Assembly: GCA_030837505.1 (NCBI GenBank)
Contig: JAUPKJ010000264.1
Coordinates: forward strand, 1 to 41,525
From: Actinomycetota bacterium
GTDB lineage: Bacteria > Actinomycetota > Actinomycetes > Actinomycetales > Kineosporiaceae
DNA length: 41,525 nt
Reading direction: 5' to 3'
Below the pieces are notes generated by a model. That model did not search any database, was not told the origin of the DNA, and saw only the letters and a program-made list of their open reading frames with translations. Every line of letters starts with the position of its first letter. The first letter of the stretch is position 1. A program made the position numbers and the translations under genes. Positions 22,586 to 23,516 of the stretch are shown in pieces.

Positions 22586-23017
22586 TCACTCCTCGCCGGT
22601 GCGTGAGCGCCGACACAGTTCGACGACCGTCTCTGCGAGGGCGACGGGGTCCAGGGGTCGGGGCAGGGCGGCCTCGGCCCGGGACCAGGTGGCCAACCAG
22701 GCGTCCTGCTGTCTGCCCGTGAGGACCAGGACGGTCGGTGGAGTGTCGAGTTCGTCCTTGAGCTGCTTGCACAGGCCGAGCCCTCCTGCGGGGGCGGCCT
22801 CACCGTCCAGGATCATCAGATCGAAACCTCCGCTGTCCGCGGCCTCGATCACTGCGGGGCGGGTGGCGTACTCCTCCCACTCGATCTCGGGCAGGTCCGG
22901 GGCCGGCCTGGACCCGACGGCGAGCCGCACGGCGTCCCGGATGTCGGGGTCGTTGCTGTACAGGAGGATCGACAGGGGGCTCCGGTCCTGCTGGACAGGG
23001 GCAGAGGTGCTCGTCAT
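22586..23017 (-). CDS. Stand-alone, atypical response-regulator receiver
   Basis: This 143-residue receiver has no output domain. The phosphoacceptor Asp71 ([11 protein letters not shown]) and Thr100 (VLVLTGR) are present, but the acidic pocket is reduced (YSNDPD) and the conserved Lys is Arg120 (LPRPLDP). Such a protein may be a phosphorylation-independent or protein-interaction receiver. It sits directly upstream of trpD, an arrangement seen in other actinomycetes. Its start ATG 23017 faces the repeat-rich region at 23018-23516. Confidence 0.8.
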
Positions 23018-23100
23018 CCGTTCGTCTCCGGGTGTGCGCGGGGGAGGCCGGCCGGTCCGGGGACCGGGCGCCGACGGTCACCGGACCGCCGACAGTCGCT

Positions 23101-23249
23101 GGTGCGGTGTCCACCGACGTTCGCCGACGAAGACGTATGCCGAGGAAGACGATCGCCTATGACACAGGCTGACGTTCGCCGATGACACGGGCTGACGATC
23201 GTCGATGACACAGGTCGCGCTGTCGGCGAACGTCGGTGGACACCGCACC
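23101..23249. repeat. 28-bp inverted repeats enclosing three 23-bp tandem repeats
   Basis: The left arm 23101-23128 and right arm 23222-23249 are exact reverse complements over 28 bp. Between them, 23148-23170, 23171-23193 and 23194-23216 are three head-to-tail copies of a 23-bp unit (GACG-T/A-TCG...ATGACAC...G). Two further units of 16 bp sharing GCCGA and GAAGAC precede them. There is no coding frame and no obvious target duplication. It could be a MITE-like element, a multi-site operator or an integration scar. Confidence 0.8.
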
Positions 23250-23503
23250 TGATCCTACTCTGCGGGTCCTGCTCCGCGGGAACTGCGGAACAGCAGGTCG
23301 AGGCTGGGGGAAAGCGAACTCGACCCGTTGCGGTGCCCGCACGGCCGCCCCCCGTGGGAACCGAGGGCCGAAAAGCAGTGGTAAACGGTCTTCACCGGTG
23401 CGAAACAGCAACAAAGCTCCGAGAAGGTGCACAAGCCCATCGGACTCTGCGCCCCATGACACCACGAGTGGGACAGGTGAGGTGACGAACACCCTTCAGC
23501 CCC

Positions 23504-23516
23504 TATGGTGTACAGG
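23504..23516 (+). promoter_or_regulatory. Leaderless -10 for the metalloprotease
   Basis: TATGGT at 23504-23509 ends seven bases before GTG 23517. The identical hexamer precedes the GT87-like gene start at 27631. Confidence 0.4.

Follow-up and report, generated by a model that had tools for sequence, protein, structure and literature searches.

Most likely, the 149-bp element found in the window (the whole stretch of DNA analysed, 41,525 nt) belongs to a scattered family of small mobile elements that lack a transposase, and has inserted immediately behind a response-regulator promoter. More specifically, we consider it probable that it represents a degenerate, non-autonomous IS630-type MITE of Kineosporia-like actinobacteria, with its 28-bp arm as the terminal inverted repeat. 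As a target duplication was looked for and was not found in the window copy, the element is classified as MITE-like, i.e. as working like or derived from a MITE and not as a fully proven member.

Anatomy of the 149-bp element

As the initial annotation had described, two perfect arms (28 of 28 bases complementary, with 93 nt between them) enclose three head-to-tail 23-bp units and two 16-bp relatives of these (Table 1). Analysis of the tandem core with TRF yielded a period of 23 bp and 2.9 copies (23148-23214), the mutual likeness of units 3 to 5 being 86-90%. No other perfect inverted repeat in the window is as long, the runners-up measuring 21, 20 and 17 bp, and perfect arms did not exceed 15 bp in any of 20 first-order Markov copies of the window; arms of 28 bp are thus far beyond chance. 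A 21-bp perfect inverted repeat, located at the very start of the contig (window 1-46) with a loop of 4 nt, probably reflects a fold-back introduced in assembly or a repeat that caused the assembly to break.

From left to right, the element is composed of the outer part of the arm (15 bp), the boxes GACGTTCGCCGACGAA, GACGTATGCCGAGGAA, GACGATCGCCTATGACACAGGCT, GACGTTCGCCGATGACACGGGCT and GACGATCGTCGATGACACAGGTC, a 5-bp spacer and the right arm, which gives five head-to-tail boxes of the GACGTTCGCC type and one inverted box within the right arm. The first box straddles the point at which the left arm ends internally, so that what the array repeats is the arm's own inner portion; the box centres vary between units (TT, TA and AT). 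When folded and compared with shuffled sequences, both strands of the element were far more stable (z −7.2 and −7.5). No plausible gene was found inside the 149 bp, so that the element, like MITEs in general, is short, non-coding and bounded by terminal inverted repeats. An Rfam scan of the element gave no match, and a scan of the element region for terminator and promoter consensus sequences gave nothing. The borders read CTG...CTG and not TA...TA, indicating that a TA target duplication is absent from the window copy or has decayed.

Table 1. Coordinates of the element, its flanking features and the related insertion sequence (window positions unless a genome is named)
Feature	Position	Strand	Remarks
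Response regulator, Rv3143 type, receiver domain only	22586..23017	-	NF050825, 173.9 bits, just under the 200-bit cut-off
Conserved leader segment beside the element	23073..23092	-	18/18 bases TCGGCGGTCCGGTGACCG shared with the leader of the orthologue in G011 / Kineosporia sp. R_H_3
Left border CTG	23099..23101	+	family consensus CTA
Left terminal inverted repeat GGTGCGGTGTCCACCGACGTTCGCCGAC	23101..23128	+	R1 profile 25.4 bits, E 5.2e-5
Unit 1 (16 bp)	23116..23131	+	starts inside the left arm
Unit 2 (16 bp)	23132..23147	+	
Unit 3 (23 bp)	23148..23170	+	
Unit 4 (23 bp)	23171..23193	+	holds the exact 12-bp GACGTTCGCCGA of the arm
Unit 5 (23 bp)	23194..23216	+	
Right terminal inverted repeat (left arm on the opposite strand)	23222..23249	-	R1 profile 23.9 bits, E 1.5e-4
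Right border CTG	23249..23251	+	family consensus TAG; CAG in two relatives with a CTG left border
Putative -10 box TAGGAT of the response-regulator promoter	23252..23257	-	GTANNATC conserved before the orthologue in most relatives
IS630-family insertion sequence	G006:C11 ~124,595-125,900		~1.3 kb, 385-aa transposase, end GTGCGTTGGCCACGAACGTTGCC with CTAG border

The arm family and its link to IS630

A second full copy of the 149 bp was absent from the source genome, a 4.5-Mb assembly whose fragmentation into 434 contigs means that repeats may be lost; only the element itself and short, weak matches were returned. Whole-element searches across the family and the order likewise revealed no second full copy. 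Core matches in two other genomes (G011 and G012; L095, L096) were dismissed, being near-identical long stretches common to both that look like a conserved coding region. Several of the weak matches in the source genome fell on the arm, and those at C108:15889 and C334:11535 have GCGGTGTCCACGAACGTTCRCC beside CTAG. Using an arm pattern with up to two mismatches on 13 family genomes, 32 sites were detected in G008, 12 in G004, nine in G006 and seven in the source genome, with zero for the reversed control in each. A profile (R1) made from 38 arms, all from genomes other than the source genome, found four arms in the latter (on C334, on C108 and both window arms; E 1.4e-5 to 1.5e-4), those besides the window being two confident solo arms with CTAG at the edge. 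In G008 the profile revealed 18 confident arms, and several complete elements are present there. Among 396 genomes of the order, R1 matches at E ≤ 5e-4 were present in six of the 13 family genomes versus one of the 383 others, the latter figure being close to the chance expectation of ~0.2. Alignment of 39 arms of relatives displayed a sharp outer border with CTA before GTGCGG (C at −3 in 30, T at −2 in 22 and A at −1 in 22 of the 39), and conservation extended past the search pattern as C and C, in 31 of the 39 arms each. Many arm sites are single arms and not complete elements, and in one ~26-kb stretch (G008:C1:250000-276000) many arms are clustered around a disrupted IS630 copy. Judged from its distribution and alignment, the arm alone is a dispersed, bounded repeat restricted to the family.

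The earlier statement that the architecture matches no element thus holds for the whole 149 bp and fails for the ends, which match the arm family and an IS630 insertion sequence. The copy search that had been proposed for the same genome and relatives had a similarly divided outcome, as the whole element is single-copy and its ends are a repeat family. The accompanying rule, by which no other copy and no conservation would reduce the element to a local accident, would have misled in the case of a single-copy element with dispersed ends: with no second full copy to find, the element would look unique in a simple BLASTN search.

In G008 and G004, inverted arm pairs are located 117-151 bp apart (outer edges), mostly 146-151 bp, in intergenic regions, the corresponding length of the window element being 147-149 bp. 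A 29-nt stretch of the window element is 97% identical to the end of a G008 element of similar length, and at the right arm the homology with the G008 element at C6:150534 extends a few bases past the arm (GACAG). The cores differ, the G008 elements carrying an inner hairpin (TTCGTGATCATGCAAA...) and the window copy the box array. Very short palindromic versions of ~37-61 bp, in which two arms nearly abut, were also observed in these two genomes (L136, L143, L144, L152), and suggest repeated internal deletion down to the ends.

IS630 elements use CTAG-type targets and generate a TA duplication. In G006, G007 and G008 an insertion sequence of ~1.3 kb was found whose ends read GTGCG...ACGTTG after CTA, with a CTAG border. 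Its transposase matches the IS630 model NF033545 (134 bits, cut-off 100) as well as Pfam DDE_3 and HTH models, and the spacing from the D of LDN to the E of NPIE, presumed to be the last two catalytic residues, is 34 when read by eye from the translation. Comparison of the window arm with the G008 small elements gave a strong likeness (0 of 500 shuffles as good; L129), and that with the right end of the insertion sequence a moderate one (4 of 500 shuffles scoring as well); the IS630 link thus runs via the repeat family. On the basis of these alignments, the end GTGCGGTGNCCACSRACGTTSGCC preceded by CTA is a bounded repeat common to small elements and an IS630-family insertion sequence, so that ends held in common with IS630, as expected for an IS630-derived element, are found in relatives and are modest for the window arm by itself. 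The proposal of a non-autonomous element in the initial annotation is supported by this result, as within this bacterial family the arm recurs as a bounded end both in small elements and in an IS630 insertion sequence.

No close relative of the IS630 transposase with GTGCGGTGTCCAC ends was found in the 434 contigs of the source assembly, and the IS630-like genes of this genome were rejected as parents, as their ends do not match. Derivation of the core from the body of the insertion sequence by internal deletion was rejected as well, the similarity not being above that of shuffles, and the resemblance of the unit's TGACAC to the left end of the insertion sequence was not significant. In the L130, L244, L245 and L251 flanks, the three bases immediately beyond the arms differ from copy to copy as complementary pairs (CCA/TGG, CTG/CAG and CTA/TAG), as though the structure were preserved, or corrected on a hairpin template, past the formal end. 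Compared with the window copy, two relatives have CTG/CAG borders and the others CCA/TGG or CTA/TAG; the outer bases have drifted, perhaps as pairs, so that no target duplication can be claimed.

Position in the predicted response-regulator leader

The GTANNATC segment before the response-regulator gene looks like a -10 box and would mark a predicted promoter, and the element starts 2 nt downstream of it. The distance from this box to the ATG is 241 in the source genome and 71-131 in the other family genomes in which the box was found; without the element it would be 92 (241-149). Judged from the usual -10 spacing, the transcription start of the regulator is expected within the initial bases of the right arm, and RNA folding predicts a very stable hairpin of ~145 nt (about −100 kcal/mol) in the leader of the regulator mRNA. 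The response-regulator orthologue is present as one copy in each of the 13 family genomes, and the element is absent from this locus in the 12 others, all of which belong to other genera. No DNA-binding domain was found in the adjacent regulator, which matches receiver-type models only.

The 18/18 match in the leader lies 8 nt from the element, and within the compared stretch the G011 sequence is the same as that of the Kineosporia sp. R_H_3 locus. Across the rest of the junction the alignment is weak, which is unsurprising for a comparison between genera, and the adjacent flanks can be aligned only partly. In Kineosporia (loci L014, L015), ctaE lies divergently to the response-regulator gene; it is missing from the locus analysed here (window 23018-23505 and beyond). 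A ctaE protein query of the source genome, run without a positive control, returned nothing at E ≤ 1e-5, and the lineage may have lost or moved its bc1-aa3 respiratory genes. The deletion scar that had previously been suggested, which would mark the lost ctaE junction, is not supported: the element is located between the -10 box and the start codon, and its removal restores a normal leader length. The difference on the ctaE side lies beyond the promoter, and the element on the regulator side of the -10 box.

Interpretation and comparison with known elements

In the scenario that we favour, an IS630 transposase of the type described above, acting in trans, would have recognized the ends and cut the element out or copied it, and the element would have joined at the TA within CTAG or a similar site, the insertion falling just downstream of the regulator's -10 box. 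The inner arm box (GACGTTCGCC) may have been multiplied by replication slippage into the 16/16/23/23/23 array, either after insertion or during amplification, and the arms could have stayed or become identical via hairpin-templated correction. Transcripts of the regulator would then carry the stable hairpin in their leader. Evidence against the MITE reading comprises the single full copy in the source genome, a core unlike both the body of the insertion sequence and the hairpin core of G008, the CTG...CTG borders, a source genome without a close transposase relative and with IS630-like genes that lack this end, the modest likeness of the arm to the end of the insertion sequence, and the many sites that are single arms.

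The regular head-to-tail boxes, the site just downstream of a conserved -10 box and the very stable fold could also indicate a multi-copy operator or a leader attenuator regulating the response regulator or the divergent gene, either through a protein bound to the six GACGTTCGCC boxes or through control of the mRNA by the leader hairpin. Modulation of expression is known for a Correia element immediately downstream of the mtrCDE promoter (PMC10969869). However, the array occurs at the orthologous promoter in none of the 12 other family genomes and is thus not conserved, the arms recur at unrelated loci, the neighbouring regulator matches receiver-type models only, and the box centres differ; we regard this reading as unlikely, and the multi-copy operator proposed initially received no positive evidence. 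Decidedly unlikely is a domesticated MITE whose iterated inner box, presumably the transposase-binding site, became a multi-site protein-binding array and, together with the leader hairpin, controls the regulator, selection keeping the arms perfect.

A palindrome and a slippage array that arose in place and resemble other sequences by chance would account for the single full copy and for an interior unlike anything else, slippage and template switching being common. Such a local accident is nevertheless very improbable, given that a profile excluding the source genome finds the arm four times there, that the arm is restricted to the family and that the 29-nt stretch recurs at 97% identity in the G008 element. 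Least probable is a dispersed palindromic repeat of the REP/BIME type (or a terminator-like repeat) not tied to an IS630 transposase: the many single arms, some of them folded into palindromes of ~60 bp or less, and the absence of the complete insertion sequence from the source genome would agree with it, but three genomes have an IS630 insertion sequence delimited by this same end with its CTAG border, the outer three bases follow the IS630-type CTAG target and no terminator signal was found. A REP/BIME with RAYT (Y1 tyrosine transposase) is less likely because of the IS630 end match.

Read as MITE-like, the element is most likely a genomic parasite of an ordinary type, distinguished by its unusual tandem-repeat core, and adds modestly to a class already known. 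It would represent an IS630-type MITE family, as yet without a name, of Kineosporia-like actinobacteria, a group for which targeted literature searches found no MITE description. Located in a conserved regulator's leader, the element appears to have a core built by iteration of its terminal sequence. Should the array bind transposase, it would offer a simple system to ask how iteration of an end sequence affects mobility or local expression.

With the IS630 insertion sequence of G006, which is absent from the source genome, the window element has the end and the CTAG border in common, unlike the length of ~1.3 kb and the 385-aa transposase. By analogy, the best functional parallel is RUP of Streptococcus pneumoniae, a 107-bp MITE for which IS630-Spn1 is the proposed mover (PMC2229807, PMC3049150): both are small, non-coding, tightly folded and intergenic, with ends like those of an IS630 insertion sequence and a TA-containing target. 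In contrast, RUP has ~108 highly conserved copies together with its insertion sequence in one genome, whereas the window element is GC-rich and diverged, with the insertion sequence absent from the assembly; an internal tandem array, as present here, is not described for RUP (PMC2229807, PMC3049150). The Correia/NEMIS elements of Neisseria (~107 and 155 bp; PMC2229807, PMC10969869) resemble the window element in size, long terminal inverted repeats (24 bp), TA ends, a long RNA hairpin (predicted here) and a case located just downstream of a promoter, where the insertion can influence expression and serve as an RNase III substrate (PMC10969869). Their sequence is, however, unrelated, the copy number of the window family is far lower, and the IHF site and RNase III data concern Correia. 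BrickBuilt of Porphyromonas gingivalis, a MITE with a 23-nt tandem minisatellite (PMC4596501), has a core that is likewise a spacer-free tandem array of the same 23-nt period, but it carries IS5-type 12-bp ends, is present in 19 copies and has repeats that are not said to copy the end sequence (PMC4596501), whereas those of the window element iterate the inner part of the arm. Taken by analogy, the window element thus combines features of RUP, Correia and BrickBuilt.
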